This document shows positions 9,016 to 36,653 of a DNA stretch of 36,653 nucleotides, piece by piece. A program made the translations under genes and the position numbers. The notes beneath the pieces were generated by a model. That model saw nothing but the letters and a program-made list of their open reading frames with translations. It was not told where the DNA came from and ran no database searches. Origin of the DNA: a bacterium (lineage in GTDB: Bacteria > JAHJDO01); contig JAHJDO010000089.1 in assembly GCA_018812485.1 (NCBI GenBank), positions 1 through 36,653 of the forward strand. Direction: 5' to 3'. The stretch's first letter is position 1. Each line of letters begins with the position of its first letter.

Positions 9016-9513
9016 ATGGTTAGAAAGTTATTGTATAGTATGGCTGCCTTCAGCTTATTAATGACAGCGGGATGCGTGTCATCGCGCCTGTTTGTAAAAA
9101 AAGAATATGATGACGGCTATTTAAGAGGATTCAAAGAAGGCTCAAAGTATAACTTAAACAGGTACAAGTATGACGACGTAGGCGGGCTTCCGTACAAATA
9201 CTGGACAAAGCCTATGGTTCAGAGAATATATATCCCCCCAAGAATTGTGGGAGGCTGTATGGTGCCAGGCCATTATGAATATGTAACAATAGTGCCTGGA
9301 CAATGGAGAACACATTTCGCCTATCCAATAGGGGAAGGCGGATTAAAACCAGAACAAAACGAGAAAGGAGTACGAGATGTTGATAACGCGATCAAGAGTC
9401 TTTACGGTGTTGGTAGTCAGTCTGATGATGCTGACTTGTGGTACAACGATGACCACAAGCGCGGAAAGTCTGACGAAGAAAAACGAGACAAGGATAACAA
9501 AGCAACAAAATAA
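9016..9513 (+). CDS. outer-membrane lipoprotein, possible TraV paralogue
   Basis: A 165-residue protein with a lipobox TAGC (Cys near residue 20). The middle shares the layout of the TraV-like protein encoded before traC: RIYIPPRIVGG, then a CMVPGHYEYV block, then PGQW. The C-terminal ~45 residues are hydrophilic and low in pattern, and their codons are also the signal-peptide region of the secretin gene read in another frame. It may be a second outer-membrane anchor, perhaps for the secretin that follows. The gene itself looks real (signal peptide plus conserved core); its tail may be shaped mainly by the overlap. Confidence 0.65.
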   Translation: MVRKLLYSMAAFSLLMTAGCVSSRLFVKKEYDDGYLRGFKEGSKYNLNRYKYDDVGGLPYKYWTKPMVQRIYIPPRIVGGCMVPGHYEYVTIVPGQWRTHFAYPIGEGGLKPEQNEKGVRDVDNAIKSLYGVGSQSDDADLWYNDDHKRGKSDEEKRDKDNKATK

Positions 9514-12166
9514 GGAGATTAAGGGGCTCATAAAAAGAGCAAAGGTTCAGTATAAGGGGGAGCACTATGAGAACGTAGTAGATTTATGCAAACAAGTTCT
9601 TAATACAAACCTAGAGAATGGAAAAGCCCTGAACAAAAAAGCTCTTAAATTAAAAGTAAAAGCAGAAGCTAAGTTAAATAAGATTAAAGAGCAAGCAAAA
9701 AAGGAAGCGGCTAAGAATAAGGAAGCTGAAAAACAAAAGAAAGAAAAAGCAAAGCAAGCGCTAATCGAAAATTTAATGAATCAGGCCAGACAGAAAATGA
9801 AGAGCAACGAGTATGATTTTGTAATAGCTCTTTGCGATGAGGTTCTCAAGATAGACGATAGTGAGATAGAAACGGTAAAATTAAAGGAAAAAGCGAAGAC
9901 AGCGTTAAAAGAGAAGAAAGAAGAAGAAAGGCAAAGACAGGAGCAAGAGACAAAAATAAATAAAGAGAGAGCAATTAGAAGCTATTTAGATCAGGCAAAA
10001 GCGGAATATAAGAACAAGAATTATAAGAAAGCAGAAAGAGCTGCAGAGCATGTTTTGCAGATAGACAGAAGCAACAAAAAAGCAAAATCAATATGGACAA
10101 AATCAGATTCAAGGTTAGAAGATATCTCAGGGAAAGAAGAAAAGGAAGCCAGCAGGATAAAAATTAGAACATTAAAGAGCGAGTTGAAACTGGCATGGGA
10201 ACAGAAGAAATATAAAGAAGTTGTAGAGATATGCAATTTGCTCCATGAGAATGTACCCGGAGATAGCATGGCAACAAAATACGAGAGAAAAGCAAAGGAT
10301 AATCTTGCAAAACAGATGGTAGCGAAAAGGCTAATGGCCTCTACTGAAGAAAAAGAGGAGAAACAGAGAGAGTTGGACGGGTATGTCACAGAAGCTATCG
10401 AAAAATACAAAAAGAAAGATTATGCAGGGGCGCGGGATGCAGCAAAAAAAGCGCTAGAGATTGATAAAGATAATGACATTGTGTTGCCGATATACATTAA
10501 AGCAAACAGACGAGCGGATATGGCAGGCCCTGGGGTAGTAAAAGAGAAAGATACCACAGGAGCAGTGCCTGTATCAAAGCCTAAAAAGGATAAGGCAATG
10601 CGGGAAGAAATTGAGGGCAAAGAGGATAAATTAGAGTTTAAGAAGGAAGACATAAAAGACGCCCAGAGTGACGCTCTCTCTGAAAACGCAGATATTAAGG
10701 CAAAAATAAAAGAGATAGACGATTCAGGGCAGCTCCAGGCGCCTGCGCCGCCAACATCGGTCAAAAGACCTGATATGGATAGGTGGACCGGGCTAATAGA
10801 CGAAGTTGACCAGGCAAAAACAGAGGTAAGCAAACCTGAATTTAATATTACTGTAGAGAAATTAGAAAAGAGCGTAAGTTTACGCTGTATGGACGTTGAA
10901 TTACAGAAGCTTTTAGAAACTCTGTTGTCAGACGAATTTGTTCTGGTATTAGGCGAAGGAGTTAGTACAAAAAAACTTATCTCAATAAATGTAAAAGAAC
11001 AGCCTTTAGGATCGGTTTTAACATCGGTTGTTACTCCGCTGGGATATTCGTGGAAGGTAAGAAGAGATAAAATAGTAGTTTTTGCTTTTGACACAAAGAC
11101 ATTCCGCGTTGTGCTGCCATCATTAGCGCATGGTTTTATAAACAAAATATCTAACGAGACCGAGACAAAAGAGACCGAAAGCGGCTCAGGGAGTGAAACA
11201 ACAAAAACAAAAGCTAAAATTGGGGCCACGATTACCGTGCAGACAGAAGTGGAAGATATGTCTGTATGGGACGAGATTGACGCTAATTTAAAGTCTTTTA
11301 TATCTGAGAAGGGGAAATATATTGTAAACAAGGGAGCAGGGCTAATTATTGTAAAGGATTATGGATACATCCTGGACAACATTGCGCAGTACATAACAAA
11401 TGTTAATAGGGAGCTATCCAGGCAGGTTCTGCTAGAAGTAAAGTTAATTGATGTGTCATTGAGCCATACAAAGGAAACGGGTATCGACTGGGGAGCAATT
11501 ACAAAGAAAGTTTCAGCTTTGGGTGTTGGTAACCTAACTATTTCAGGTAACTTTACAGATGCAGTATCCAACGGATTTGTTTTAAATGCTCAGGGGCCAA
11601 ACGCAGGATCAGGAGATTCAAGAAGAGGCATACAAACACTAATCAAGCTGCTTGAGGAGCAAGGAGAGGTTTCTATTTTATCTCAGCCAAAGCAAATGGT
11701 CTTAAATAATCAACCGGCAGTAATTCAGGTAGGCAGAATTGTGACATATATTGCAAGTTCAACCAGATCTGTTACTGATACTGGGGAGTCTTATACTATT
11801 GAGACATCAGACGTTCAGGAAGGAATCACAATGTTTGTTGTGGCAAGGATAAATGAAAGCGGAGAAATATACGTAAATATATCTCCTGTCTTGACAACTA
11901 TTGAGCAGATTCGACAAATACAGATGGGTGGCACAACTATAGAAGCTCCAGAACAGACAATCAGAGCAATGACCACAACAGTTAGAATAAGAAACGGAGA
12001 TACAATAATTCTTGGCGGGCTTATATCTAAAGACAAAAAATATACAGATCAGTCAGTTCCTTTCTTTAACCGGATTCCCTTCATCGGGAAGGCTTTTGGA
12101 TATACAGAAAGGGATGTAACAAGATCAGAACTGGTTATTATGATCACGCCAATAATTGTGTCATAA
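9377..12166 (+). CDS. type IVb pilus secretin with N-terminal TPR repeats (PilN/PilQ-like)
   Basis: A 929-residue outer-membrane pore protein. A signal peptide ends in TTSA-ES; GAAAGGAG lies 8 bases before the ATG, which supports a 137-base overlap with the preceding lipoprotein gene. About 40-400 holds five TPR-like repeats of the form KYKKKDYAGARDAAKKALEI. N-domains follow (about 480-580), then the GKYIVNKGAGLIIVKDYGY segment typical of PilN/BfpB secretins, then the secretin barrel ending in ILGGLISKD and a SELVIMITPIIV tail. It would let the type IV pilus cross the outer membrane. The long TPR front end is unusual for the family. Confidence 0.88.
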   Translation: MLITRSRVFTVLVVSLMMLTCGTTMTTSAESLTKKNETRITKQQNKEIKGLIKRAKVQYKGEHYENVVDLCKQVLNTNLENGKALNKKALKLKVKAEAKLNKIKEQAKKEAAKNKEAEKQKKEKAKQALIENLMNQARQKMKSNEYDFVIALCDEVLKIDDSEIETVKLKEKAKTALKEKKEEERQRQEQETKINKERAIRSYLDQAKAEYKNKNYKKAERAAEHVLQIDRSNKKAKSIWTKSDSRLEDISGKEEKEASRIKIRTLKSELKLAWEQKKYKEVVEICNLLHENVPGDSMATKYERKAKDNLAKQMVAKRLMASTEEKEEKQRELDGYVTEAIEKYKKKDYAGARDAAKKALEIDKDNDIVLPIYIKANRRADMAGPGVVKEKDTTGAVPVSKPKKDKAMREEIEGKEDKLEFKKEDIKDAQSDALSENADIKAKIKEIDDSGQLQAPAPPTSVKRPDMDRWTGLIDEVDQAKTEVSKPEFNITVEKLEKSVSLRCMDVELQKLLETLLSDEFVLVLGEGVSTKKLISINVKEQPLGSVLTSVVTPLGYSWKVRRDKIVVFAFDTKTFRVVLPSLAHGFINKISNETETKETESGSGSETTKTKAKIGATITVQTEVEDMSVWDEIDANLKSFISEKGKYIVNKGAGLIIVKDYGYILDNIAQYITNVNRELSRQVLLEVKLIDVSLSHTKETGIDWGAITKKVSALGVGNLTISGNFTDAVSNGFVLNAQGPNAGSGDSRRGIQTLIKLLEEQGEVSILSQPKQMVLNNQPAVIQVGRIVTYIASSTRSVTDTGESYTIETSDVQEGITMFVVARINESGEIYVNISPVLTTIEQIRQIQMGGTTIEAPEQTIRAMTTTVRIRNGDTIILGGLISKDKKYTDQSVPFFNRIPFIGKAFGYTERDVTRSELVIMITPIIVS

Positions 12167-12179
12167 GGAGATTACATAG

Positions 12180-13310
12180 ATGCGAATTGTATATGGAAAA
12201 TGGTGCTTGATTGAAGACGATTCAGGGAAAGTAGAAGTTGTTGAATCAGATAAGTTAAGCCGAATAAATTTCGAAAAAAAGAAGATAGTTGTAGGTGTTG
12301 CGGATCATGACTCGCAAGTTTCTACAGAGCCGTCAAGCGTGGAATTAAGAGACGTTGACATTTCTGCTGTACAGCCAGCAGAAGCTCAGCTTTGGGCAAT
12401 CTCAACAATAACCAGAGATACAATGAATAAAATAAGCAATATGGGAAAGATAGAAGGAGTCTATCCCATCGCGCCTGTAGTAATAAAAGGAATTAAAATA
12501 GAAAAGATTCCAAACCTAGAAGAGAAAAGAACCGTCTATATAGAAAAATGGAGCGAGAGCGAGGGATTTGCGGTCGGCTTTTGTGGCCAGAGAATATATT
12601 TTTGCGATTTTATTTCAATGAATCCAGAAGTATTGATAAGCGATATAATAAGAATACAGAAAAAAATGTCAGCCACGCAAATTACCGATATGCCCTTTCA
12701 TTTAGTAACGAATAGTCAGGAAATTGGTAACATGGCGTTGGAAGACAACCTTTTTGGCGCAGGGGATATTGCCGTTGTACCAACGCATTTATCGCTAAAA
12801 GGGTTGGCACATGTTGAGGATATAAAGCCATTCAGGTATCCGGAAGAAATAGCAAGGGAAGAGAAAAACAAACAGCTTAAAAAGGACAGAAAGTTTATGG
12901 CAGTTGCCGGAACTATTGCACTAGCAATGCTTGCAGTAAGCGTTTGGTTTTTACATGGATTCCAGGTTAACACCGATAAATTAAAAATTCTAAATGACAC
13001 AAAAAGAAAGATTAAAGTGGAGAATATTATTCTAACACAACAAAGATATGAAGCAATAATAGAGGCAAATAATATAGATATATTGCCTATTGTTCAAAAA
13101 TTACAATTTATCTTTGGAAACAAATTCATTCCATTTGCAAATATTAAAAATAAGTCCGGAGAGATTTATCTAAACGCATATTTTGAAAAACCCCCTATTT
13201 TAAAAGAGCCAGGGTTAATTCAAAGAATCAGGGGTGTTATGAAAACAGCAAAGATAGAAGCGACAATTGTAAAAGGAAAGCAAGGGATAAAGGTGTCATA
13301 TGTGGAATAA
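12180..13310 (+). CDS. PilO2-like type IVb pilus inner-membrane protein
   Basis: A 376-residue protein with a cytoplasmic domain of about 240 residues, a single membrane helix (about 241-260), and a short periplasmic C-terminus. The segment TVYIEKWSESEGFAVGFC and the order after a PilN-type secretin resemble PilO2 of R64-like pili, a bitopic protein doing the work of PilM/PilN or GspL. It would tie the cytoplasmic ATPase to the periplasmic alignment complex. A GGAG lies upstream, and the stop overlaps the next start by 11 bases. The assignment rests on topology and neighbours more than on strong motifs. Confidence 0.62.
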   Translation: MRIVYGKWCLIEDDSGKVEVVESDKLSRINFEKKKIVVGVADHDSQVSTEPSSVELRDVDISAVQPAEAQLWAISTITRDTMNKISNMGKIEGVYPIAPVVIKGIKIEKIPNLEEKRTVYIEKWSESEGFAVGFCGQRIYFCDFISMNPEVLISDIIRIQKKMSATQITDMPFHLVTNSQEIGNMALEDNLFGAGDIAVVPTHLSLKGLAHVEDIKPFRYPEEIAREEKNKQLKKDRKFMAVAGTIALAMLAVSVWFLHGFQVNTDKLKILNDTKRKIKVENIILTQQRYEAIIEANNIDILPIVQKLQFIFGNKFIPFANIKNKSGEIYLNAYFEKPPILKEPGLIQRIRGVMKTAKIEATIVKGKQGIKVSYVE

Positions 13311-13872
13311 GTTTAAATTACTGGGAATTATGTTTATAATTGCGGCTTTTTTAGCCGGATTTTACACCATTAATACTTTCTATAGAGATATAGATTTGAA
13401 GAAGAACATAAAAAGTTCAAAGGTTGAGCTTTTTGCGCTTAAAAAAAGCATGGAAAGAATTAGAACGTTACCTAAAGCAGAAAAAGGAAAGAGTATAGAT
13501 GTATTGTTTAATGAGCTTTGCAAAGAGCTTTCGCAATTTTGCGAATTGCTTAAAATCAATTATGGGTTACAAGCTGTCGGTTCAGTTGTTAAAGATGTAG
13601 GGAAGAAAAAGTTTACGGAGACAAAAGTCCAGGAAGAAAGGGTCCCTACGCTTGATTATGTTGTCAATAGCGAGCTTCCTGGCGTTAAGAAATTAGGATT
13701 ACAATTTACCTATGAGATAACACGGGGGAATATTATAAGTTCTACTTATATTCTAGAGATATTACAGAAATACCCTGTGTTAATTAAGGAATTAAGAATA
13801 ATAAGTGGGAAATATATTCTTAATTTTGATTTGTATGGGCTGGAAAAACTGTCAATAATTTTAGGAGGGTAA
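13300..13872 (+). CDS. PilO/GspM-like pilus alignment protein
   Basis: A 190-residue protein: a short N-terminal tail, one membrane helix (about 6-25), a coiled-coil helix (about 30-60), and a small periplasmic alpha/beta domain ending in a hydrophobic strand-helix pair. This is the shape of PilO and GspM proteins of the inner-membrane alignment complex. It overlaps the preceding PilO2-like gene by 11 bases, and the PilP-like gene begins one base after its stop. No strong sequence motif is visible, so the function is inferred from shape and operon position. Confidence 0.55.
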   Translation: MWNKFKLLGIMFIIAAFLAGFYTINTFYRDIDLKKNIKSSKVELFALKKSMERIRTLPKAEKGKSIDVLFNELCKELSQFCELLKINYGLQAVGSVVKDVGKKKFTETKVQEERVPTLDYVVNSELPGVKKLGLQFTYEITRGNIISSTYILEILQKYPVLIKELRIISGKYILNFDLYGLEKLSIILGG

Positions 13873-13873
13873 T

Positions 13874-14404
13874 ATGAGAAAAAAAGGAGTTTTTTGGATC
13901 GCCGGAATGTTCGTTGCATTAGGGATGATTATACCAAGTATAGGGCTATGCGAAGAACAGCAAAAGCAAGCTGAGGAAAGCAAAAAAATATACGACACAA
14001 AACCGTTAATCAAGCTAGAAGAGGAGATTTCAACAGAGGAGAAGCAGCTCAAATTGCTTGAGATAAAAGCGCAGAAGAAGAAATACGAAATTGAAATCAG
14101 AGGAATCGAAGCGCAAATGCAAGATTTTGAAAGCACGAATGGTGGACAGGCAGGACGCGTTTATCAAAGGCAGAAGATTAGAAGCAGTCAAGGCAAAGAA
14201 GGAGAGGATGTTAATTGGTTATCAAAAGCATATCTTAAAATGGTGTTTAAAAAGCAGAATGTGAACTATGCCATGATTTCATTTAATGATAGAGAAATTA
14301 CAGTTAAAGAAGGGGATCTTTTTGAGGGTTATAAAGTAGAAAAAATTGCAACAGATTATGTTGTGATAAAAGCAGGCAAGATTATCGAAAGGATATCGTG
14401 GTGA
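13874..14404 (+). CDS. pilP: PilP-like pilus biogenesis protein
   Basis: A 176-residue exported protein: a signal peptide ending near GLC-EE, a long charged coiled coil (about 30-85), a linker, and a C-terminal beta domain (about 125-176) with the pattern AMISFNDREITVKEGDLFEG, then VEKIATDYVVI. That domain is the PilP/GspC homology region that contacts the secretin. The coiled coil plus a small beta domain matches R64-type PilP. It lies between the PilO-like gene and the ATPase, and ends on a TGATG overlap with the ATPase start. Confidence 0.68.
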   Translation: MRKKGVFWIAGMFVALGMIIPSIGLCEEQQKQAEESKKIYDTKPLIKLEEEISTEEKQLKLLEIKAQKKKYEIEIRGIEAQMQDFESTNGGQAGRVYQRQKIRSSQGKEGEDVNWLSKAYLKMVFKKQNVNYAMISFNDREITVKEGDLFEGYKVEKIATDYVVIKAGKIIERISW

Positions 14405-16059
14405 TGGTAAAAAGAGCGCATACAATTCCGTTAGGGCAATGGCTTTTAGGGCAGGGAGAGGTTTCGGAAGAAAACCTTGCAGTCGCGCTTAATGAACAAA
14501 AACAAACAGGAAAAGCGCTGGGCGATATATTAATAGAAAAGCATTTTGCTTCTGAAGAAAGCGTATATTTAGCCCTGGCTGGTCAGATAGGCTATGAATA
14601 TATAAATACCCTTCCGGTTGGTTTGATTGATAACAAGGTGTTGGATCGTTTAGATATTAACGTTCTTAGAAAGAAGTCTGTTGTGCCAATCAGGCATAAA
14701 GGAAGCACATGTTTTGTTATTTCAGATCCAAGCGATGATTTGGTAATTAAATATTTAATAGAACAAGGGTATCTAAGTTATAAAAGACTGCTTACAACGC
14801 CAGCAAATATTGAGTCACTCTATTCGGAGATAACGACAAGCGATAAAAAAACTATTGAGAAACAAATCAGCCTGATGCAGAAGAGTGGAGTGGATCATGA
14901 AGAGGGAGAAATTAGAGAGTTTGTGCATAGGATTTTAAGTATAGCAATAAGTAGTGATGCAACAGATATTCACTTTGAGCCGGAGGGGTCTATAACAAGA
15001 GTAAGGATTCGTATAGATGGTATCTTATATGAAGAGAAACCTATTTCAATTAGTAGGCATAATCGCTTAGTAAATGTGCTCTATAGCATGGGGAAAGCGA
15101 CGGTTTCAGAATTCGGCAAGTTTCAGGATAAGCAGTTTAGTATAGAAACCACCATGAAAAGGAAAGTAGATGTAAGGCTTTCTTCAATTCCTACTGAACA
15201 TGGAGAGCGGGCCTCTATAGTTTTGCGACTGCTCAACAGAGAGAGGTCTTTGTCAGCTCTTAGCAAGCTTGGTTTTTCAAAGGATAGCTATAACAAAATA
15301 CAAAAAGTGATTGAATTCCCGTATGGCATGGTAATTTTTACAGGGCCTACTGGAAGCGGCAAGACGACCTCTCTATATTCAATACTTCAGGAATTAAGAG
15401 GACCAAAAATCAAGATTATCACGATTGAAGATCCAATTGAAATTGATATATCCATGGTGCAGCAGGTTCAAATAAATGAAAAAGCCGGAATAACGTTCCC
15501 TGAAGCATCAAGAAGGTTTCTAAGGCATGACCCGGATATAATATTAATAGGTGAAATCAGGGATAAAGAAACTGCTGAGGAAGCTATACGAGCTGCAATG
15601 ACAGGCCATAAGGTTTTTACAACACTGCATACAAACAGCGCAATAGACTCTATATCGAGATTTCTGGATCTGGGTGTTTCCAGGTGGAATCTTGCAAGTT
15701 CTCTTTTGGCTGTTGTTGCGCAAAGGTTGATCAGAGTTCTCTGCCCGAATTGCAAAGAGAAAGATGATCCCAGTAAATATAAAGGGATAGACATTAAAGA
15801 TGTGAAAATATACAAAGCCAGCAAGAAAGGCTGCGAGAAATGTAACGGTAAGGGGTATAAAGGGCGAACAGCCGCATCAGAAGTATTTATAATAAATGAT
15901 AAAATAAGATCCGTTATATCTAATTCTTTTAATATTGATAAACTTATTGAAGCTGCAAAAAAGCAGGGATATAGAACATTACTTGAAGATGCAATGGATA
16001 TCTTGAAACAAGGAAAAACAAGTGTTGAGGAAATTAAAAGAGTGATAGGAGTAATGTAA
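14404..16059 (+). CDS. type IV pilus assembly ATPase (PilB/PilQ/GspE family)
   Basis: A 551-residue hexameric secretion ATPase. An N-terminal MshEN-like domain (about 1-140) precedes the catalytic core. The Walker A GPTGSGKT lies at about 314-321, followed by the Asp box IITIEDPIE, the Walker B LIGEIRD, and the His box TTLHTNSA. Two CxxC pairs (CPNC near 446, CEKC near 477) form the zinc site typical of PilB/GspE extension ATPases. I chose the ATG in the TGATG overlap; a GTG six bases earlier is possible. It powers pilus extension. No PilT-type retraction ATPase is present in the window. Confidence 0.93.
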   Translation: MVKRAHTIPLGQWLLGQGEVSEENLAVALNEQKQTGKALGDILIEKHFASEESVYLALAGQIGYEYINTLPVGLIDNKVLDRLDINVLRKKSVVPIRHKGSTCFVISDPSDDLVIKYLIEQGYLSYKRLLTTPANIESLYSEITTSDKKTIEKQISLMQKSGVDHEEGEIREFVHRILSIAISSDATDIHFEPEGSITRVRIRIDGILYEEKPISISRHNRLVNVLYSMGKATVSEFGKFQDKQFSIETTMKRKVDVRLSSIPTEHGERASIVLRLLNRERSLSALSKLGFSKDSYNKIQKVIEFPYGMVIFTGPTGSGKTTSLYSILQELRGPKIKIITIEDPIEIDISMVQQVQINEKAGITFPEASRRFLRHDPDIILIGEIRDKETAEEAIRAAMTGHKVFTTLHTNSAIDSISRFLDLGVSRWNLASSLLAVVAQRLIRVLCPNCKEKDDPSKYKGIDIKDVKIYKASKKGCEKCNGKGYKGRTAASEVFIINDKIRSVISNSFNIDKLIEAAKKQGYRTLLEDAMDILKQGKTSVEEIKRVIGVM

Positions 16060-16061
16060 CA

Positions 16062-17270
16062 ATGTTATCGTTTTGTTATAGAGCTGTTTCGAGTGCTGGG
16101 ATAATAGTTGCGGGAAACATAGAAGGAGCTTCGCATAGAAGCGTTAAGAAAGGATTAATAAAGAAAAACTATCAGATTTTATCCCTATATCCAAATATAG
16201 TTAAGAGTTTATCATTGCTTTTTAAAAGACGACAGTTGAGCAGAAGCGCCTTAATTGACTTTTTTGGAGAGTTAGGTAAGTGCTTAAATATGGGAATGGA
16301 TCTACTTGCGAGTCTTAAGATGATGCGTGAAACCACGGTGGATAGTATGGTAAAGAGAGTTTGTGTTCTTGTTGATGAGAGCATACGAAACGGATTTACT
16401 CTGGCAGATGCTTTAGGGAGAACGAACGTTATCCCTAAAATCAGCATTGCAGCTGTTAGGGTTGGGGAGAAAAGCGGCGATTTATCTAAGTCGTTGAGAG
16501 ATTTGGCAGAGACATACAAAGTAGAGCAAGAGTTCGTATCAGAGTTAAAGCGCGCTGCAACATACCCTCTAGTTGTAATTAGTTTTTTGTTTATAGTGGT
16601 TATATTTGTTGGGTTTTATGTAATTCCTAAGCTAGAGCCACTTTTTGCAATCAGCGGCGGTGGAAACTTCATGACAAAAGGGCTTTTATTTCTCTCTTTT
16701 GTGTTAAGAAAATTTTGGTGGCTTATAATTATATCTTTTTTTGGCTTATGTTATTTTATAGGCGTTCTTAAAGAGCGGTTTTCCCAACAATTCTATGAAA
16801 TTATCTACAAGATAAAGCTGGTTGGCGTGATGGCAAAAGAAACCGCTATTTCAAGAGCATTTCATAATCTTGGTTTGCTGGCAGAAGCAGGGATCCCTGT
16901 CCTGGATAGCTTAAGTATTGTTGTTGAGAGCATGCCATATAAATATATATGCGCAAAACTCAATAAAGTTAGAGAAAGACTTTTGATGGGTGGGTCTTTT
17001 GGCGAAGTGCTTAATGACGGATTCTTTCCCCCGCAAGTGTATGATGTTATAGCCAGAGGAGAAAAAAGAGGAGCGCTTGGTGAATCTTTTTTAAGTGTGG
17101 CTGAGTATTATAGAGGGAAAGTACGAGACAAGCTTATTATTTTAACTAAATTGGTAGAGCCAGTAATGATTATAATAGCGGCATTACTGGTGGTTGGAGT
17201 GCTGTTTTCGTTCTTTGTGCCAATATATTCAAATGTAACAAATATAGAGAATATAAGTACTTTAAAATAA
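16062..17270 (+). CDS. type IV pilus/T2SS platform protein (PilC/GspF/PilR family)
   Basis: A 402-residue inner-membrane protein with the two-lobed GspF layout. The first cytoplasmic domain (about 60-165) contains FFGELGKCLNMGMDL and VGEKSGDLSKSL. Membrane helices lie around 170-190 and 220-245. The second cytoplasmic domain carries the repeated motif (LAEAGIPVLDSL, GEKRGALGESF), and a final helix lies near 368-388. It is the rotor-like platform on which the assembly ATPase acts. It starts two bases after the ATPase stop, and its stop overlaps an in-frame ATG of the following pilin reading frame. Confidence 0.92.
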   Translation: MLSFCYRAVSSAGIIVAGNIEGASHRSVKKGLIKKNYQILSLYPNIVKSLSLLFKRRQLSRSALIDFFGELGKCLNMGMDLLASLKMMRETTVDSMVKRVCVLVDESIRNGFTLADALGRTNVIPKISIAAVRVGEKSGDLSKSLRDLAETYKVEQEFVSELKRAATYPLVVISFLFIVVIFVGFYVIPKLEPLFAISGGGNFMTKGLLFLSFVLRKFWWLIIISFFGLCYFIGVLKERFSQQFYEIIYKIKLVGVMAKETAISRAFHNLGLLAEAGIPVLDSLSIVVESMPYKYICAKLNKVRERLLMGGSFGEVLNDGFFPPQVYDVIARGEKRGALGESFLSVAEYYRGKVRDKLIILTKLVEPVMIIIAALLVVGVLFSFFVPIYSNVTNIENISTLK

Positions 17271-17293
17271 TGAAAAAAGGGGGTGAGAAAAGA

Positions 17294-17731
17294 ATGATGA
17301 AGAGATCAATTAATCGCAAAGCATTTACATTGATTGAGTTGGCGATTGTAATGGTGATCATCGCCATACTTATTGGTGTATTAATTCCTACGTTTGGAAT
17401 GCGTGATAAGGCAAATATCTCAAGAGCAAAAGGAGATATCGGGGGACTGCATGCCGCAGCGTTAGGATATGTAAGTGCTGGCAGGACAACTTTTACTGGA
17501 GTTAGTGTTGCAGTTCTGGTTACCGAGGGACATCTGCCCGCAAACTTTTCTGGAACAGCTTCAAATCCATGGGGAGGAGATTATACGGTAGCCGTTAATA
17601 CGGATGCAACTAAAGTTGATATCGCTGCTACCGATGTACCGGCAAATGCAGGCGCAGATCTGGTAAGAACGTTTAATACAAAGAGTGAAGGAGCAGTTTA
17701 TGCTACCACGACATTTACGGTTACGTTCTAA
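17294..17731 (+). CDS. type IV prepilin, probable major pilin
   Basis: A 145-residue prepilin. I chose the ATG at 17294, which has a purine-rich GGGGGTGAG site and gives the short leader MMKRSINRKA before FTLIELAIV; the ORF is open from 17270. Prepilin peptidase would cut between A10 and F11, leaving Glu at mature position 5. The rest is a small globular head with SNPWGGDYTV and alternating polar strands. It is the first of three pilins following the platform gene, the place of pilS in R64. No prepilin peptidase gene is in the window, so a host enzyme is presumably used. Confidence 0.85.
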   Translation: MMKRSINRKAFTLIELAIVMVIIAILIGVLIPTFGMRDKANISRAKGDIGGLHAAALGYVSAGRTTFTGVSVAVLVTEGHLPANFSGTASNPWGGDYTVAVNTDATKVDIAATDVPANAGADLVRTFNTKSEGAVYATTTFTVTF

Positions 17732-18179
17732 ATATGGGTTTACGCTTCTTGAACTGGCTATATCTATAGTAATTTTAGGAGTATTGGTAATAATTATCGC
17801 GGGTACAGCGCATCAGAGGATAAAGGTGGCAAAAGCAGGAGCTGTAGTGAAATCAATGGCGGCTATTGCGGATGCAAGTGATGCGCACAGAAAAGATCAA
17901 GGATCATGGCCAACAACTCTGACTGATATAGCCAGTTATTTGCCTGCGAATTTTCAGGCAACAAATATGTTTGGAAACGGATACACATTATCATCTAATA
18001 ACATGATTTTTACGGTACAGACGGATATTCCTTCAGGGATTCTAACAGCTAGTAGATTGGGTTCACAATTCAGAATAATTAGTAATCCGCCAAATGTTAC
18101 ATTGTCTTTAACAAAAACCCTTGAAATGGGAGAAGTGGGGGAGGCTGTTTATGATAAACAACATTTATATGAAGAATAA
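17700..18179 (+). CDS. type IV prepilin, minor pilin
   Basis: A 159-residue prepilin starting at the ATG 6 bases after AAGGAG, inside the 3' end of the first pilin gene (32-base overlap). The leader ends in G13, then FTLLELAIS with the expected Glu at mature position 5. The head carries ATNMFGNGYTLSSNNMIFTVQTDIP, closely paralleling NSFGNAYSVSSTADAFTVQSNIP in the third prepilin, so these two genes are paralogues by duplication. It probably forms part of the pilus or its tip complex. Confidence 0.82.
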   Translation: MLPRHLRLRSKYGFTLLELAISIVILGVLVIIIAGTAHQRIKVAKAGAVVKSMAAIADASDAHRKDQGSWPTTLTDIASYLPANFQATNMFGNGYTLSSNNMIFTVQTDIPSGILTASRLGSQFRIISNPPNVTLSLTKTLEMGEVGEAVYDKQHLYEE

Positions 18180-19146
18180 AAAAGCTTTTACACTTGTTGA
18201 AATTGCCATAGTAATGGCTGTTCTAGGGGTGCTGGCTATGGTAGCTACTCCCAGAGCTATTACTCTAATGAATACAAAGGCAGCGCAAAAAACGGCTGTA
18301 GAAACAAAACATATTCAGGACGCTGCTAAGTGGTATTATGTTGCAAATAGTACCTGGCCAGCAGATATTACAGCGCTGCAGACTGCCGGGTATCTGGATT
18401 CTTCATGGACGGCTAATAATTCTTTTGGAAATGCTTATAGTGTAAGCTCAACAGCAGACGCCTTTACTGTTCAAAGCAACATCCCCGCTGCTTATATAAA
18501 TGCGGCAGCTCAGGTATTACCACAAGCCGTAGTAGTAGTAGAAACCATATCAAGTACTGTACCCCTGCCAGGAAGCGAATCCTCTCATGATAACTTGCTT
18601 CATAGATTAGCTGCTGCTACGCAGGAACAAAGGACATTAGAAGGGGATGTTTACACGCAGGGGAAAATTTATGACGATACAAACAATACATACCTATTGG
18701 ATTTAAGCCCGACTGGAACAAGTTATGTACACAGAATTAGTGCAGATGACGTATATATCAGGCAGCTTAGTACTTGGGTAAGCGATATGACAGGTGTGCC
18801 GTCCGGGACCATAGCAATGTGGTCAGGCGCTAGTGCTCCTAGTGGCTGGGATTTATGTGATGGAACAAACGGTACGCCGGACTTAAGAGATAGATTTATT
18901 GTAGGAGCAGGATCTTCTTATGCTGTAGGAGCAACAGGTGGGGAGAATACCCATACTTTAACTATTGCTGAAATGCCTGCACATTCACATTCCTATAATG
19001 AGACATGGCATAAAGGTAATGCTACTTTTAACTCTGCGGCTAATTATATGACAGCCAGAGTTAATAATACTGGTTCAACTGGTGGAAATGCTGCACATGA
19101 AAACAGACCGCCTTATTACGCTTTATGTTTTATTATGAAGGGTTAA
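18151..19146 (+). CDS. PilV-like prepilin fused to a phage tail-collar domain
   Basis: A 331-residue protein. GGGGGAGG lies 6 bases before the chosen ATG. The leader ends in A12, then FTLVEIAIV, a class III signal with Glu at mature position 5. Residues ~13-135 are a pilin domain related to the preceding minor pilin. A linker (~135-215) follows, then about 216-331 matches the phage tail-collar/microcystin-dependent protein module: SGTIAMWSGASAPSGWDLCDG, PDLRDRFIVGAG, EMPAHSHSY and a PPYYALCFIMK ending. In R64 the pilin-like PilV at the tip chooses the recipient cell. The same role is inferred here, with a collar domain as adhesin. No inversion repeats or recombinase for a shufflon are seen. 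Confidence 0.85.
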   Translation: MINNIYMKNKKAFTLVEIAIVMAVLGVLAMVATPRAITLMNTKAAQKTAVETKHIQDAAKWYYVANSTWPADITALQTAGYLDSSWTANNSFGNAYSVSSTADAFTVQSNIPAAYINAAAQVLPQAVVVVETISSTVPLPGSESSHDNLLHRLAAATQEQRTLEGDVYTQGKIYDDTNNTYLLDLSPTGTSYVHRISADDVYIRQLSTWVSDMTGVPSGTIAMWSGASAPSGWDLCDGTNGTPDLRDRFIVGAGSSYAVGATGGENTHTLTIAEMPAHSHSYNETWHKGNATFNSAANYMTARVNNTGSTGGNAAHENRPPYYALCFIMKG

Positions 19147-29447: not shown

Positions 29448-29846
29448 ATGAATAAAATTATGCGTAGAATAGTAATTGTTTTTGCCATAAGCTTTTTGCC
29501 TGTTTTCGGGTTTGCTGAGGTAATTGGCAATGCTGATGAGATAATAGAGAATATCGCTAATCCAATCTTGAACAACATTCTGGATGGCATTAAAACGAGT
29601 AATGCCGAAAAATATTCAAAAGATTTTAAAGCATCCAGGAGAATGTTTATGCAAAAATATGATCAGGTACAAGCTCAAATTGGGAACTGGAAGTCATATA
29701 AATATCTCGGCTTCTTAAACAGAGAAACTGAGACAGTAGTTCTATGGAAAGGCCAGTTCAATGAAACCAATAATGATGTTTTGATCAAAATGGCCATATC
29801 TAAAGAAAACGGTAAATATTTGGTTGTTGGCTTGTGGTTTCAATAA
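29448..29846 (+). CDS. small exported protein, DUF3887/NTF2-like fold suspected
   Basis: A 132-residue protein with a signal peptide ending in GFA-EV. The mature part begins with helices (IIENIANPILNNILDGI), a YSKDFKASRRMF segment, and ends in beta strands (VVLWKGQFNETNNDVLIKM, then LVVGLWFQ). This helix-then-sheet order resembles small NTF2-like domains of the DUF3887 type, but the match is only by eye. It overlaps the open frame of the nuclease gene that follows. Confidence 0.55.
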   Translation: MNKIMRRIVIVFAISFLPVFGFAEVIGNADEIIENIANPILNNILDGIKTSNAEKYSKDFKASRRMFMQKYDQVQAQIGNWKSYKYLGFLNRETETVVLWKGQFNETNNDVLIKMAISKENGKYLVVGLWFQ

Positions 29847-29863
29847 TAAACCCAGGGAAACTT

Positions 29864-30394
29864 ATGAAAGCTTTATTAAAACCTATTAATCTCTTAATAA
29901 AAGTTATTACTGTGCCTGTATTAGTTTGCCTGGTAACGTCCTATGCTTACGGCGTTGTGGACATATTTGAAGGCAAAGAGGGCTGTATAAAAGGCAAGTA
30001 TTGCAAGGTTAAGTTTATAAAGGTAGTTACTCCTGAAAAGATAATTGTAAAGCGAGGATTAAAGGAGCACAGCGTAAAACTTGCCGGGGTTAACGTCCCA
30101 AAAGAATATTGGCCGGAAGCAACTACTTTTATAAGGAGTTTTATCGAGGGGATAGTTAAACATCCATATATCACAGTTGAATTTGAGAAAACAAAGAAAG
30201 AAAAAGCATGGGTAGGTTACGTCTGGAAAGAAGGCTTAATGTTAAATTGGGAGTTGGTAAGGATGGGACTTGCAGAATATTGTCAAAAAGATATTACGGG
30301 AAATAAGTATGATCAGTTTTTACAAGGAGCAGAACTTAAAGCAAAAACAGAAAGGAAAGGAATGTGGGCAAAAATATTAAGAGGAGGAATGTGA
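29864..30394 (+). CDS. exported thermonuclease (SNase-like)
   Basis: A 176-residue protein from the ATG at 29864, with CCAGGGAAA upstream. A signal peptide (hydrophobic ~8-25, ending in AYG) is followed by a staphylococcal-nuclease OB fold: HSVKLAGVNVPKE, EATTFIRSFIEG, a VGYVWKEGLMLNWELVRMG segment and a terminal KAKTERKGMW. The family's catalytic Arg before the (R)LxGI(D/N)xPE motif appears changed here, so activity is uncertain. SNase genes are frequent on conjugative elements. It could degrade nucleic acid outside the cytoplasm. Its stop overlaps the next start (TGATG). Confidence 0.82.
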   Translation: MKALLKPINLLIKVITVPVLVCLVTSYAYGVVDIFEGKEGCIKGKYCKVKFIKVVTPEKIIVKRGLKEHSVKLAGVNVPKEYWPEATTFIRSFIEGIVKHPYITVEFEKTKKEKAWVGYVWKEGLMLNWELVRMGLAEYCQKDITGNKYDQFLQGAELKAKTERKGMWAKILRGGM

Positions 30395-31496: not shown

Positions 31497-32898
31497 CAAG
31501 TATTTGACAATCTTGTGTTTATTTTTAGTAGTTTCAATAGTTGGTTGCGGCGTAATTAAGAAACGCCCATCTAATGACCTTATTCAAGGCGCGCTAAAGT
31601 ACAAATTACCTCCAGCGCTAAAAATAGTAGATTTAAAAGCAGAAGAATGGAGTTCCTCGGGCAAGCTCGGAGAAATTATCACTATTTTTTCTGCGCAGGT
31701 TATTCCTAGAGAAGATCTGGTAGAACAGATTGATTATATTGAAGGGACTTCCATTGTGAAGGTTGTTTTTCCAAAAACAAAGAGTGTTCCAATTAATGGG
31801 AAAGCGTTTGCCAAACAAGTTGGAGATCAATGGGAAGTTCAAGTAGAAATTAGCGAAAAGCACAAAGTGCTGTATTTTGTAGAAGAACCAATATCAAAAT
31901 ATCAACCGGCAATTCTAGCAGGAAGCAAAGAAGCAGAGAAACTAAAATCAGATCAATCAGATAAAATATTGCGTATAGCATGTAAAAAACTCGATGCAGA
32001 AATTAAACTGGATGAGAAAAGAAAAAAAATAAAACAAGAGCAACTTGATAAAGAAAAGCAAGAAGATATTGTTCTCCGGAAGAAAATGTTCTCAGCAATA
32101 GTCAATGCGTCAGGTCTTGTTGGTGGGACAGAGAAGAAGATACGCGATTGGTATATCTTCGTAGAAAACAAAGATCCTAAAAAACTTCTTTTTACCGGTA
32201 CTATTATTAAAGAACTTATAATTGGTGGATCGATTCCTTTTTCAGGTAGAATTGAAAAGGGTGGAATAGCAGTCTTGAAAACAGTTGCCGATGACGAAAC
32301 AAAAAATATTATACTTGATCAGGTAGATGTAACCGGACGTGTGACAGGAATATACTTTGCTTTTATGCCAATATCAGAAAATAAGGTAAAAGAGATAAAG
32401 GCAACATTAGAATATATGAAAGCATGGGCTGAAAGAGATTTTGTTATTAAGACAATAAGTAAAGAAGAAGCCATACAACTTCTTGCGCAAACTGAGTATT
32501 ATACCCCAAAGGGAGAAGCAACGGCTTCAAGTTGCCACTATGGCAGTTCAGGGTACCCTAAACGGGCGATAAATAATGATTTTAGCACATGGCAGTGTTT
32601 AGATGATAAAACTGGGTGGCTTAATATTCGTTTAAAAAGCTCGCAAAAGTGTATGGGGATTTTGTTATATAGGCCTGACGGTAGTGTAATTAAGTCTGCA
32701 AATATAAAGATTAATAATGGGAAAAGGATCTCATTTTCGACCACAGCAGAAAAAGGGAGTCTTTTAATTCCTTTTAAAAAAGAGGAATTTATTAAAAATA
32801 TTAGGGTAAATATTATTCAATCAGATAGACATACTGGATTTGCAGAAATAGTTTTTATTTCTCGCTTGAAAGAGAAAAAGGAAAACCAAAATGAATGA
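31483..32898 (+). CDS. large lipoprotein with F5/8-type discoidin-like C-terminal domain
   Basis: A 471-residue protein from the ATG at 31483; AAGGATC supports it over 31453. The lipobox SIVGC puts the lipidated Cys near residue 22. A middle region with a Lys/Glu coiled coil (about 170-210) is followed by beta-rich sequence. About 350-460 reads as a galactose-binding, coagulation factor 5/8-like domain: GEATASSCHYGSSGYPKRAI, NDFSTWQCLDDKTGWLNIRL, then strands to the end. Such domains bind carbohydrate or surface ligands, so it may act in cell-surface contact. Family naming is by pattern. Confidence 0.68.
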   Translation: MKAHSKYLTILCLFLVVSIVGCGVIKKRPSNDLIQGALKYKLPPALKIVDLKAEEWSSSGKLGEIITIFSAQVIPREDLVEQIDYIEGTSIVKVVFPKTKSVPINGKAFAKQVGDQWEVQVEISEKHKVLYFVEEPISKYQPAILAGSKEAEKLKSDQSDKILRIACKKLDAEIKLDEKRKKIKQEQLDKEKQEDIVLRKKMFSAIVNASGLVGGTEKKIRDWYIFVENKDPKKLLFTGTIIKELIIGGSIPFSGRIEKGGIAVLKTVADDETKNIILDQVDVTGRVTGIYFAFMPISENKVKEIKATLEYMKAWAERDFVIKTISKEEAIQLLAQTEYYTPKGEATASSCHYGSSGYPKRAINNDFSTWQCLDDKTGWLNIRLKSSQKCMGILLYRPDGSVIKSANIKINNGKRISFSTTAEKGSLLIPFKKEEFIKNIRVNIIQSDRHTGFAEIVFISRLKEKKENQNE

Positions 32899-33784
32899 GA
32901 GACCTGAAGAAATCAGACTGAAGATTGAATTAGTCCCTTCCGCATCGTGGTATGATAATTTAAGAAAACATACATCAAAAGAGGATTGGAATAAAATACG
33001 AAAGAGGGTTTACGCTAGCTACGGATACAGATGTGGAATTTGTAGTACTAAGGGAAGATTGAATTGCCATGAAATTTGGGAATATGATGATAAAGGATAT
33101 ATTCAGAGACTTGTTGGGTTCATCGCACTCTGTGATCTGTGCCACCATGTTAAGCATATAGGTCATGCAGATATTTTGGCGGATGAAGGGAAATTAGATT
33201 ACGAAAAAATTGTTGAGCATTTTATGAGAGTCAATAATTGCAGTAGAAATACTTTTGAAAAACACAGGGGAAAGGCGTTTGACGAGTGGAAAGAGCGATC
33301 GAGCCATGAATGGCAAGTGGATTTGGGAGAGTATAAGGATATAATTAAATATGTGGTATCAATGAATGGGAATAAAGAAGAGGAAGCAGGAGGGCTAACT
33401 GTTAGAAGCATTGATACTGTTGAACAAGCAGAAGCTTATTATCAGCATTTGATTCACGATGACTGTTATCAAAAAAAAGATGTGGTTGGACACTGGTTCG
33501 GGAAAGGAGCGGCAGCACTCGGTCTTGCCGGCGAAATTAAGAAGGATGATTTTGATGCTCTCATCTGTGGGGAAAAACCCACAGGAAAGCATATCGTAGA
33601 ACCAAGTTATGGGAAAGCAGAAGGTAATTTTATAACAACTGATGAAATTAAACAGTATTTTTTCTGCCCTTATGCTTATCTGTATGGTTTTATGGGAAAA
33701 GTAGGCGCTTCTATGGAAAAAGATAAAAAGAAAAGACTATATGGAAGAAAACAGCAACATAGAAAATTAGAGACAAAGTATTAA
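32891..33784 (+). CDS. HNH nuclease domain fused to a MobF relaxase fragment and a Cas4-like N-terminus
   Basis: A 297-residue mosaic. Residues 1-155 are an HNH/zinc domain: C48-x2-C51, H60, C81-x2-C84 followed by H85-H86. Residues ~173-235 match the N-terminus of TraI/TrwC relaxases: a YY pair at 183-184, then HWFGKGAAALGLAGE, FDALICGEKPTG; the His triad of a relaxase is absent. Residues ~247-297 look like the start of a Cas4-type nuclease: ITTDEIKQYFFCPYAYLYG with C259, then YGRKQQHRKLE. The catalytic part of a Cas4-like enzyme follows in the next ORF, one base after this stop. The mosaic suggests gene fusion by recombination. Confidence 0.8.
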   Translation: MNERPEEIRLKIELVPSASWYDNLRKHTSKEDWNKIRKRVYASYGYRCGICSTKGRLNCHEIWEYDDKGYIQRLVGFIALCDLCHHVKHIGHADILADEGKLDYEKIVEHFMRVNNCSRNTFEKHRGKAFDEWKERSSHEWQVDLGEYKDIIKYVVSMNGNKEEEAGGLTVRSIDTVEQAEAYYQHLIHDDCYQKKDVVGHWFGKGAAALGLAGEIKKDDFDALICGEKPTGKHIVEPSYGKAEGNFITTDEIKQYFFCPYAYLYGFMGKVGASMEKDKKKRLYGRKQQHRKLETKY

Positions 33785-33785
33785 C

Positions 33786-34427
33786 ATGATAAATAAAATT
33801 ATTTTATTTCTAATTTATCGAGTAATAGAGCCATTATTTATTTTTTGTCCTGTTCTCCTATTTTTTTTATTGGTTAACAGGATAACAACTTCGCGAAAAA
33901 TAAGAAAGCTGAAATTAAATTTTTTTATTTCCAAAGAGGAGTTAAATAAAAAACCTCGATTTAAAAGATTGGGGAAGTATGTTTACAAAGACAAAGGTTA
34001 TAGATCTAAAATATTCTACAATCAGGATTATGGTATTTCTGGAAAACCTGACAGAATATTCCGCTTATTTAACGGGCTCTATATTCCGATAGATTTTAAG
34101 TCGAGAAAATTAAAAGACGGCAGAATATACGAAGATGAAGAAATACAAATGGTTGCGCATATATTATTGGCAAGGGCTAATTTCCAAAAAGCTGAGTTTG
34201 GGCTTCTCATTTACGGAGATGAGAAGGTAGCTAAAATTGAGTTAAAGGAGAATAAGTTAAGCAAACTAAAAGAATGTCTTATGAATATTCGTAAAATGAG
34301 ACAGGGGAATGTTAGCTCTTGCCGTTTCGTTGAAACGAGTGCCAATATTAGCAGAGAAAAATGCCACCATTGCAAGGTATCTAGTAAATGCGAATATAGG
34401 AATTTTCGGAATACGAAAGTAGCTTAA
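33786..34427 (+). CDS. membrane-anchored PD-(D/E)XK nuclease (Cas4/RecB-like)
   Basis: A 213-residue protein. A hydrophobic segment (about 5-31) is followed by a nuclease core: GISGKPDRIF with D89, then PIDFKSRK with D103 and K105, then QMVAHILL with Q121 at the QxxxY-like position. The C-terminus has C193-x2-C196-x5-C202, the three-Cys arrangement that holds the iron-sulfur cluster in Cas4 and AddB. The fourth, N-terminal Cys of that cluster is missing here but present as C259 at the end of the preceding ORF, whose stop is one base upstream. Together the two could form a split Cas4-like nuclease. No CRISPR array or other cas gene is nearby. Confidence 0.8.
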   Translation: MINKIILFLIYRVIEPLFIFCPVLLFFLLVNRITTSRKIRKLKLNFFISKEELNKKPRFKRLGKYVYKDKGYRSKIFYNQDYGISGKPDRIFRLFNGLYIPIDFKSRKLKDGRIYEDEEIQMVAHILLARANFQKAEFGLLIYGDEKVAKIELKENKLSKLKECLMNIRKMRQGNVSSCRFVETSANISREKCHHCKVSSKCEYRNFRNTKVA

Positions 34428-34463: not shown

Positions 34464-34871
34464 ATGGATAAAACAAAAAAAGAGTTGTTTTCCGATAAAG
34501 TGCGCGCGGGAAATCGGACGTATTTTTTTGATGTAAAAGAGTCTAGCCAGGGAGCAAAGTACTTAACTATCAGCGAATCAAAGAGAGACGAAAAAGGAAG
34601 CTATAGGCACAGTCGAATTATGGTCTTTGAAGAATGCGCTAGTGAATTTCGTGCTGCGGTAGGGAAGGCAATTAGATTTATGGGAAAGGTTGATTCTGGT
34701 ATAGAACGCGGGGTATACGCACGATCTCATTTGAGGTGGAGTAAAGAAGAAGATGTTTCCGTAAAAGATCAATTTGCTAAAGGTAAACAAATTGATGAAT
34801 TATCTAAGATGTTTCAAAGAAAGCCGACTGCTATAGCAAATCGTTTAAGCAAGCTAGGTGTCTTTTATTAA
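34464..34871 (+). CDS. PUR-alpha-like DUF3276 protein with C-terminal HTH
   Basis: A 135-residue protein with AAAGGGGG before the ATG. Residues ~12-72 match the bacterial PUR domain (DUF3276): VRAGNRTYFFDVKESSQGAKYLTI, then SRIMVFEECASEFRAAV; these bind single-stranded nucleic acid. Residues ~88-135 form a Myb/SANT-like helix-turn-helix: HLRWSKEEDVSVKDQFAKGK, IDELSKMFQRKPTAIANRLSKLG. It is the last gene of the collinear block and may handle single-stranded DNA during transfer or control expression. The two-domain form is my reading of the sequence. Confidence 0.75.
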   Translation: MDKTKKELFSDKVRAGNRTYFFDVKESSQGAKYLTISESKRDEKGSYRHSRIMVFEECASEFRAAVGKAIRFMGKVDSGIERGVYARSHLRWSKEEDVSVKDQFAKGKQIDELSKMFQRKPTAIANRLSKLGVFY

Positions 34872-35398: not shown

Positions 35399-35764
35399 AT
35401 GGGAAAGAGGACAAAAGGAGAGATAGAAGCTCAAATCAGCGAGGCGATAATAAAGTTTGAAAAAGAATATATGGGCAGAGGCCCTATGGAGACAAAGACC
35501 TATATTATAAAGGATATGGTCTTGGTTCGCCTCAAAGGAGTGCTTACGCTTTCCGAGGAGCAATTAGCCAAGAGCGCTGAGGGAGCTGAATTAATAAAAA
35601 GGACACGTATGCAGTTATTAGAGGGTGCGAGACTTTTGCTGGAAAATATAATTTTAGATATTACCGCTTGTCAGACAAAAAACCTGCATACAGACATAAG
35701 CACAAAAACAGGCGAGAGAATTATTATTTTTACATTAGATCAAGATTTGGAGGATAAATTTTAA
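35399..35764 (+). CDS. DUF2294 domain protein
   Basis: A 121-residue protein that covers the full DUF2294 family: KGEIEAQISEAIIKFEKEYM, GRGPMETKTYIIKDMVLVRL, LTLSEEQLAKSAEGAELIK, and the closing HTDISTKTGERIIIFTL. It has no signal peptide. The biochemical function of the family is not established. It follows the operator-promoter at 35072-35120 and the ATPase remnant, and is probably a host gene next to the PEP carboxykinase gene. Only a weak AAAGAG ribosome site precedes the ATG. Confidence 0.85.
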   Translation: MGKRTKGEIEAQISEAIIKFEKEYMGRGPMETKTYIIKDMVLVRLKGVLTLSEEQLAKSAEGAELIKRTRMQLLEGARLLLENIILDITACQTKNLHTDISTKTGERIIIFTLDQDLEDKF

Positions 35765-35782
35765 AACAAAAAGTGTTACCTA

Positions 35783-35833
35783 TGTGCCCAGCCAGCACAA
35801 GATATTGACTAAATTCTTTTTTTGTTTTAGAAT
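35783..35833 (+). promoter_or_regulatory. operator plus promoter of the PEP carboxykinase gene
   Basis: An inverted repeat TGTGC-N7-GCACA (35783-35799) lies 5 bases before a -35 box TTGACT (35805-35810), with TAGAAT (35828-35833) after a 17-base spacer. It shares TATGTGCCCAGC and CAGCACA with the operator upstream of the DUF2294 region. The transcript would start about 170 bases before the pckG ATG. Confidence 0.62.
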
Positions 35834-35907
35834 AAAGCTGACAGACGGGTAATATTTTGGAAGACTGAGGCAAGGACCCATTAGAATATAAGGGGTTGTT
35901 GCGAAGT

Positions 35908-35968
35908 AAGCCAACATTGAGGTTCCAAGTTTCTGCGATAAGCGGAAAACAGGAAGCGGTGTTGGCTT
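35908..35968 (+). promoter_or_regulatory. structured 5' leader of pckG
   Basis: AAGCCAACA (35908-35916) and TGTTGGCTT (35960-35968) form a perfect 9-bp stem. Inside it, TTTCTGC (35930-35936) pairs with GCGGAAA (35942-35948) around GATAA with one G-T pair. GGTTG upstream could pair instead with CCAAC of the outer stem, giving a possible switch between two folds. T-rich sequence follows the stem before the GGAGG ribosome site. Function as an attenuator is inference. Confidence 0.45.
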
Positions 35969-36009
35969 TGTTGTTTTATAAGCGTTTTTTAAAAAAAGGA
36001 GGAAGGGCG

Positions 36010-36653
36010 ATGTCGAAAATGTATCTAGAAGCATTGGAATCCAAATTGAGTGAACGTGATTATGAGAAACTGGAGCGAATAGCCAATCCCAAAATTCAGC
36101 GGTTTATTGCTGAGTCTTGCGAACTCTGTAATCCTGAGAGAATATTTATCTGTAGCGATTCTTCAGAAGATATCGCTTATGTGCGCCAACAAGCAGTGTC
36201 TAGTGGTGAGGAAAAGCCATTGGCTATTTCCGGGCATACTTATCACTTTGATGGGATAGAAGATCAGGGTCGTGACCGTGAGGTAACCAAGTATCTTGTA
36301 CCTAAAGACGATTCACTTAGCAATACCCTCAAGCAGATTGAGCGCGAGGAAGGATTGACGGAAGTAAAAGCGTTACTTAAAGGTACTATGCAGGGGCGGA
36401 CAATGATTGTCCGTTTTCTTTCACTGGGGCCGACTAACTCTGTATTCAGCATCCCCTGTGTACAGTGTACTGATTCCTGGTATGTGGCTCACAGTGAAGA
36501 CCTTCTTTATCGGTCAGCCTATGATATGTTTACGCAAAAAACAGAACAGTCAGAGCTTTTTTGCATCCTTCATTCGGCAGGAAAAATGAATGAGGATATG
36601 GTGAGTGTAGAGACAGATAAAAAGCGTATCTATATTGATTACACCAAAGACAC
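36010..36653 (+). CDS. pckG: phosphoenolpyruvate carboxykinase (GTP), N-terminal part
   Basis: The open frame runs off the window end; 214 complete codons are seen. AAAGGAGGAAGG precedes the ATG. Matches to GTP-dependent PEP carboxykinase include NPKIQRFIAESCELCNPE, then LKGTMQGRTMIVRFLSLGP, the VQCTDSWYVAHSEDLLYR segment and, before them, RDREVTKYLVPKDDSLSNT. The enzyme interconverts oxaloacetate and PEP with GTP/GDP. The kinase loop and most catalytic residues lie beyond the window. It is a core-metabolism gene and marks host chromosome. A paired operator upstream suggests regulation. Confidence 0.92.
   Translation, partial: MSKMYLEALESKLSERDYEKLERIANPKIQRFIAESCELCNPERIFICSDSSEDIAYVRQQAVSSGEEKPLAISGHTYHFDGIEDQGRDREVTKYLVPKDDSLSNTLKQIEREEGLTEVKALLKGTMQGRTMIVRFLSLGPTNSVFSIPCVQCTDSWYVAHSEDLLYRSAYDMFTQKTEQSELFCILHSAGKMNEDMVSVETDKKRIYIDYTKD

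Follow-up and report, generated by a model that had tools for sequence, protein, structure and literature searches.

The two open reading frames described here, ORF1 (32891-33784, + strand, 297 aa) and ORF2 (33786-34427, + strand, 213 aa), are separated by a single base in a 36,653-nucleotide stretch of bacterial DNA, referred to as the window. The window starts at base 1 of its contig and its end cuts the last gene, coding for PEPCK. It encodes an RPA-type replication initiator and an F-type transfer region (TraL, E, B, C, H, G, U and F). Within this region, between traC and traH, lies a type IV pilus or type II secretion-like cassette (9377-19146) with a secretin, GspE, PilC/GspF and pilin-like proteins. 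A staphylococcal-nuclease-like protein is encoded about 3 kb upstream of the ORF1/ORF2 pair (29834-30394) and a DUF3276/PurA-like protein directly after it (34464-34871). At its right end (35399-36651) the window carries MpsC and PEPCK genes of chromosomal appearance, so that the transfer element may be integrated in the chromosome.

The GC content of the ORF1/ORF2 segments varied between 0.30 and 0.43 without a clear break, and the Pfam-scanned ORFs of the window included no cas genes. A PADLOC defence-system scan returned only Cas4-type and weaker PD-(D/E)XK matches. The host phylum consists of five genomes of one genus. ORF1 and ORF2 were absent from the other four, and close relatives of whole ORF1 or of ORF2 were found neither in the same-phylum genomes (n = 5) nor in IMG/VR; no close relatives of ORF2 were detected among phages.

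The preliminary description had assigned an HNH domain, a relaxase N-terminus and a Cas4-like N-terminus to ORF1, and a membrane helix with a nuclease core to ORF2; the two ORFs and these domains were recovered as described. The HNH domain (ORF1 aa 1-153; 32891..33349, +) corresponds end to end to a standalone family of HNH endonucleases of about 150 aa. The tblastn relatives are ORFs of ~150-165 aa with 50-69% identity, and the C-x2-C, CHEIWEY and C-x2-CH motifs of the family are kept intact in ORF1. The standalone family is present in 106 plasmid records.

The second part of ORF1 is a MobF/TrwC relaxase N-terminal stub (aa 169-243; 33395..33619, +), which starts at the natural relaxase N-terminus and breaks off around profile position 65-85. 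Pfam TrwC scored 33.8 bits (cut-off 25), aligning aa 178-237 with profile positions 2-65 of 286. The NCBIfam MobF model NF041492 aligned aa 169-243 with positions 2-85 of 299, below the whole-protein cut-off, as expected for a stub. The His-triad region, and with it a complete HUH domain, is missing from ORF1, in agreement with what had been read there. Compared with TrwC/TraI, the stub keeps the first Tyr pair, whereas the second reads C-Y. No other TrwC relaxase was found in the source genome.

The remaining 54 residues of ORF1 (FITTDEIKQYFFCPYAYLY...GRKQQH, aa 244-297; 33620..33781, +) bear the Cas4 N-terminal pattern, with C259 and G286-x3-H290, and correspond to the putative N-half of a split Cas4. 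A profile built from five single-chain Cas4s aligned aa 247-291 with its positions 17-57, which upheld the assignment of a Cas4-like N-terminus with one Cys. On N-half profiles the window N-half scored low (4.8-5.9 bits), a score that was equalled by 1 of 2000 shuffles and, in another run, by ~4 of 5000, and its pairwise z-scores against N-halves of other genomes reached 12.5. Given these weak profile scores, motif, position and complementarity were relied on as much as the score. A PDB search with the N-half profile gave no match. There is no ATG, GTG or TTG between ORF1 aa 198 and C259, and hence the Cas4 part would be translated only at the end of a larger protein. The reading frame stays open to the natural N-half end, one base ahead of ORF2. 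The window N-half carries neither a CFI-box nor a C-terminal membrane helix, one of which is found in most other N-halves.

ORF2 begins with a membrane helix (aa 2-41; 33786..33908, +) with a hydropathy of 2.3 over 19 residues. AF2 modeling of ORF2 alone from its single sequence placed a helix at 2-41 with a pLDDT of about 90 over the first 30 residues; the mean pLDDT of the model was 40.5, with only the membrane helix being confident. The C-half (33963..34427, +) is supported by PDDEXK_1, TIGR00372, conservation and a match to positions 78-201 of the single-chain Cas4 profile. The PDDEXK_1 match was above the Pfam cut-off, and the D and D/E-x-K of the Cas4 core are present as D89 and D103-x-K105, followed by the triad C193-x2-C196-x5-C202. 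Among 16 ORF2 relatives, D89, K105, C193 and C196 are invariant; C202 is present in ORF2. Core pairwise z-scores reached 31. The curated cas4 equivalog TIGR00372 matched ORF2 with E = 4.6e-11 and 42.9 bits, which is under its cut-off of 65 bits. The proposed composition of ORF2 (membrane helix, PD-(D/E)XK core and Cys triad) was thus corroborated by hydropathy, AF2, PDDEXK_1 and TIGR00372.

On the single-chain Cas4 profile the ORF1 tail and ORF2 occupy their segments without overlap, and an artificial join of the two scored about 12 bits higher than the ORF2 core by itself. When N-half/C-half pairs were concatenated, their profile was collinear with the solved Cas4 8d3l, the N-half mapping to residues 3-78 and the C-half to residues 103-199. 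For the V. breoganii pair, the N-half aligned with cas4 positions 4-49 (weakly) and the C-half with 59-175. The cas4 model was matched by 5/18 N-halves, and some others weakly matched the N-terminal part of the Dna2, Exo5 and PDDEXK_1 profiles. In Cas4/RecB-type nucleases, the N-terminal Cys is the fourth cluster ligand and the motif-I His belongs to the active site. The relevant passages of Hudaiberdiev et al. 2017 (PMC5704561) ascribe four conserved cysteines to all Cas4 family members and place a Cas4 clade on Burkholderiales conjugative plasmids; they do not describe a split Cas4, and our literature search for one found no prior description. In the window, C259 is on ORF1 and C193, C196 and C202 are on ORF2, so the pair is Cas4-like and not a canonical single-chain Cas4.

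The split arrangement was found again on plasmids. Using tblastn with ORF2, we retrieved PD-(D/E)XK genes from Aeromonas, Vibrio, Marinobacter, Pseudomonas and Microbulbifer plasmids; the small gene upstream, annotated as CFI-box-CTERM or unannotated, has a Cas4 N-terminus at its start. Rhodanobacter, Burkholderia, Methylophaga, Acidovorax and Denitratisoma plasmids share this arrangement, and in the window the N-half likewise lies directly upstream of a C-half with helix, PD-(D/E)XK core and Cys triad. An N-half was present in 26/26 plasmid records with a C-half, a set excluding Natribaculum, where the match is a single-chain protein; the independent cases are fewer than 26, since many of these are near-identical Aeromonas plasmids. 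The two genes usually touch or overlap. One gene separates them in Thioalkalivibrio, Xanthomonas and R. thiooxydans plasmids, and in a P. psychrotolerans plasmid (our locus L036) the halves are on opposite strands, both being kept. One Cys and one His are invariant among the N-halves; among the C-halves, the D, the K and the first two Cys are. Many of the carriers were typed as MOBH or MOBF, MPF_F elements.

Plasmid N-halves like those at L015:7486-7902 and L027:156-566 continue from the Cas4 N-terminus into a CFI-box-CTERM domain of unknown function; our literature search found no paper on the CFI-box. Unannotated N-half genes lie at L016:7606-7854, L017:7454-7852, L021:2508-2921 and L036:2622-2906 (-). 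The genes between separated halves (L022:2649-2927, L024:3446-4051 and L032:3453-4121) encode a DUF4326 protein in Thioalkalivibrio and hypothetical proteins in Xanthomonas and Rhodanobacter.

We have also searched the genomes of the phylum of G006, the source of the Chloroflexota locus L004. The C-half profile gave matches in 48/101 genomes, some with other nucleases. At the 20 best loci, the C-half carries a membrane helix but lacks an N-terminal Cys, and 18 of these loci have an N-half upstream on the same strand. The Chloroflexota N-half profile (invariant R5, S7, C15, W19, G25, G37, H41 and H44, among 13) found an N-half in 20/20 genomes with a C-half at these best 20 loci. The halves are on different contigs in G431, where an intact N-half lies about 49 kb inside its contig, counted from the nearer end, and the N-half of G490 is close to a contig end. 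Elsewhere the two genes often overlap by a few bases, being some hundred bases apart in a few cases. The Chloroflexota N-half has its own membrane helix at its end, so that the two genes resemble a two-helix hairpin severed within the loop. Reading the neighbours by eye, we take them to be NAD kinase-like and recN-like genes (G449 and G399) and a rarA-like gene (G431), a setting that suggests a possible link to DNA repair. In the tree, the Chloroflexota C-halves formed one group (96/87) and the window C-half grouped with the plasmid halves L015-L022 (95/89); the single-chain Cas4s stood apart with weak support.

A diverged case was found in IncC plasmids. A hypothetical protein of pYR1 (L034:6249-6770) is a diverged C-half that keeps the membrane helix and the PD-(D/E)XK core and ends in CSCGGKFHM in place of the Cys triad. 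No N-half was detected in NC_009139 or NZ_AP018687, both of which are IncC plasmids that were searched whole. The joint absence of the N-half and degeneration of the triad would be expected if the N-half Cys partners the triad, and the case counts as one event since it concerns one lineage. The IncC-type C-half protein is found on about 1,000-1,100 plasmid records, mostly of enterobacteria and IncC where typing was seen; a search of the IncC literature for gene names of the vcrx003-007 type found none. Under the split-Cas4 reading, this hypothetical protein may be a descendant with its cluster lost.

Based on these data, we consider it likely that a membrane-anchored Cas4-like Fe-S nuclease is split here between ORF2 and the last ~54 residues of ORF1 and is completed in trans. 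At the sequence level, the two halves are present, cover complementary stretches of the Cas4 profile and occur together in plasmids and Chloroflexota genomes; from this we infer that they pair physically, assemble the cluster and act as a nuclease. In the proposed mechanism, the N-terminal helix of the C-half would anchor it in the inner membrane, leaving the PD-(D/E)XK core on the cytosolic side. Docking on this membrane-held C-half, the N-half would supply the Cas4 N-terminal segment, in which C259 would be the fourth cysteine of the cluster and H290 the motif-I histidine. Both the Fe-S cluster and the active site would then be completed between two polypeptides, and in the window the N-half would form the C-terminal end of an HNH-relaxase-stub protein. 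The earlier idea of an iron-sulfur cluster split over two proteins thus received strong comparative support, the split recurring in every plasmid record and every Chloroflexota genome counted above.

Of the domain order noted in the window, the Cas4 split was found again in other genomes and the three-part HNH-relaxase-Cas4N order was not, having no second example. Separate intact genes were found in relatives for the HNH and relaxase parts; the Cas4 part is two genes elsewhere as well. The recombination scar considered in the preliminary description therefore fails for the Cas4 part and probably applies to the HNH/relaxase fusion. No other TrwC match in 385 genomes was a 1-65 stub within a longer protein, the shortest others being one of 5-130 in a 165-aa frame and a weak one under the cut-off. 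The HNH and relaxase pieces of ORF1 are probably a recombination product local to the window copy, for which the simplest account is an in-frame recombination beside an N-half gene that left the N-half in place. The fusion may or may not still work, and it may be an assembly chimera.

If the fusion damaged the window N-half, the split pair would be real elsewhere and ORF2 would persist alone or be decaying, as in IncC. The window is the only copy with the HNH-relaxase-Cas4N fusion, its relaxase stub is truncated in a genome with no other TrwC, its N-half has no CFI-box or membrane helix as most relatives do, and the IncC case makes it plain that a C-half can outlast its N-half. However, C259, G286 and H290 are retained, no stop interrupts the frame before the N-half reaches its natural end and the HNH motifs are intact. 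Moreover, the ORF2 triad is intact, unlike that of IncC, and Vibrio N-halves also do without the CFI-box. We regard this explanation as unlikely.

The three-part ORF1 could instead be an adaptive multi-nuclease, with the HNH domain, a relaxase-derived arm and the split Cas4 acting together on transferring DNA. All three parts are in frame, the stub still scores over 60 residues on Pfam TrwC and the locus is in an F-type transfer element, but the order has no second example, the stub is without the His triad and was not seen again in the 385 genomes, and the HNH domain stands alone elsewhere. This reading is highly improbable. Likewise, it is very unlikely that a two-protein membrane Cas4 has gained an HNH domain and a relaxase arm to form a multi-nuclease complex that processes or destroys transferring DNA at the F-type channel. 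The proposal that the three-domain mosaic is one system was thus left unsupported, the relaxase piece being without a catalytic fold.

It is extremely improbable that ORF2 is a self-sufficient Cas4-like protein, with C21 as fourth ligand and the ORF1 tail a chance resemblance: aa 20-22 of ORF2 do read FCP, the alignments of several library Cas4 profiles start at aa 18-19 and the window N-half profile scores are low, but ~0.1% or fewer of the shuffles reach the N-half score, z-scores rise to 12.5, the ORF1 tail is exactly where relatives keep their N-half, and C21 is unconserved in relatives, lies within a long hydrophobic helix with no GxxxH after it and falls in a region left unaligned by the single-chain Cas4 profile. 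A simple gene break was rejected, as the split recurs with intact frames.

The recurrence on plasmids and chromosomes alike argues that the Cas4 split is probably a real two-protein membrane enzyme and not a broken gene. Its most likely, if weakly supported, role would be to trim or degrade DNA ends at the inner membrane while DNA is being transferred or repaired. If this is correct, the split pair would be a ready system in which to ask whether cluster assembly controls nuclease activity, with one subunit being added or withheld, and unnamed conjugative-plasmid genes (the CFI-box-CTERM/PD-(D/E)XK pair) would gain a nuclease identity.

Compared with known systems, the split Cas4 is a variant within the Cas4 family and not a categorically new system. 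With that family (TIGR00372/Cas_Cas4; 7mi4, 8d3l, 4r5q and 4ic1) the window pair has in common the PD-(D/E)XK core, C-x2-C-x5-C, the N-terminal Cys and GxxxH; it differs in being two genes, in the membrane helix between the parts and in scoring below the cas4 equivalog cut-off. Nucleases of the Dna2/Exo5/AddB type also hold their Fe-S cluster with one distant and three clustered cysteines, but they are single chains with no membrane helix between the parts. With MobF/TrwC relaxases ORF1 shares the first ~65 profile positions, the first Tyr pair and W-x-GKGA-x3-LGL, whereas its stub is truncated and has no His triad or helicase part. The CFI-box-CTERM and PD-(D/E)XK pairs of proteobacterial conjugative plasmids have the same order of halves and the same motifs, and the window C-half groups with them; in those pairs a small protein of its own, mostly one with a CFI-box, makes up the N-half, whereas in the window it is the tail of an HNH-relaxase-stub protein.
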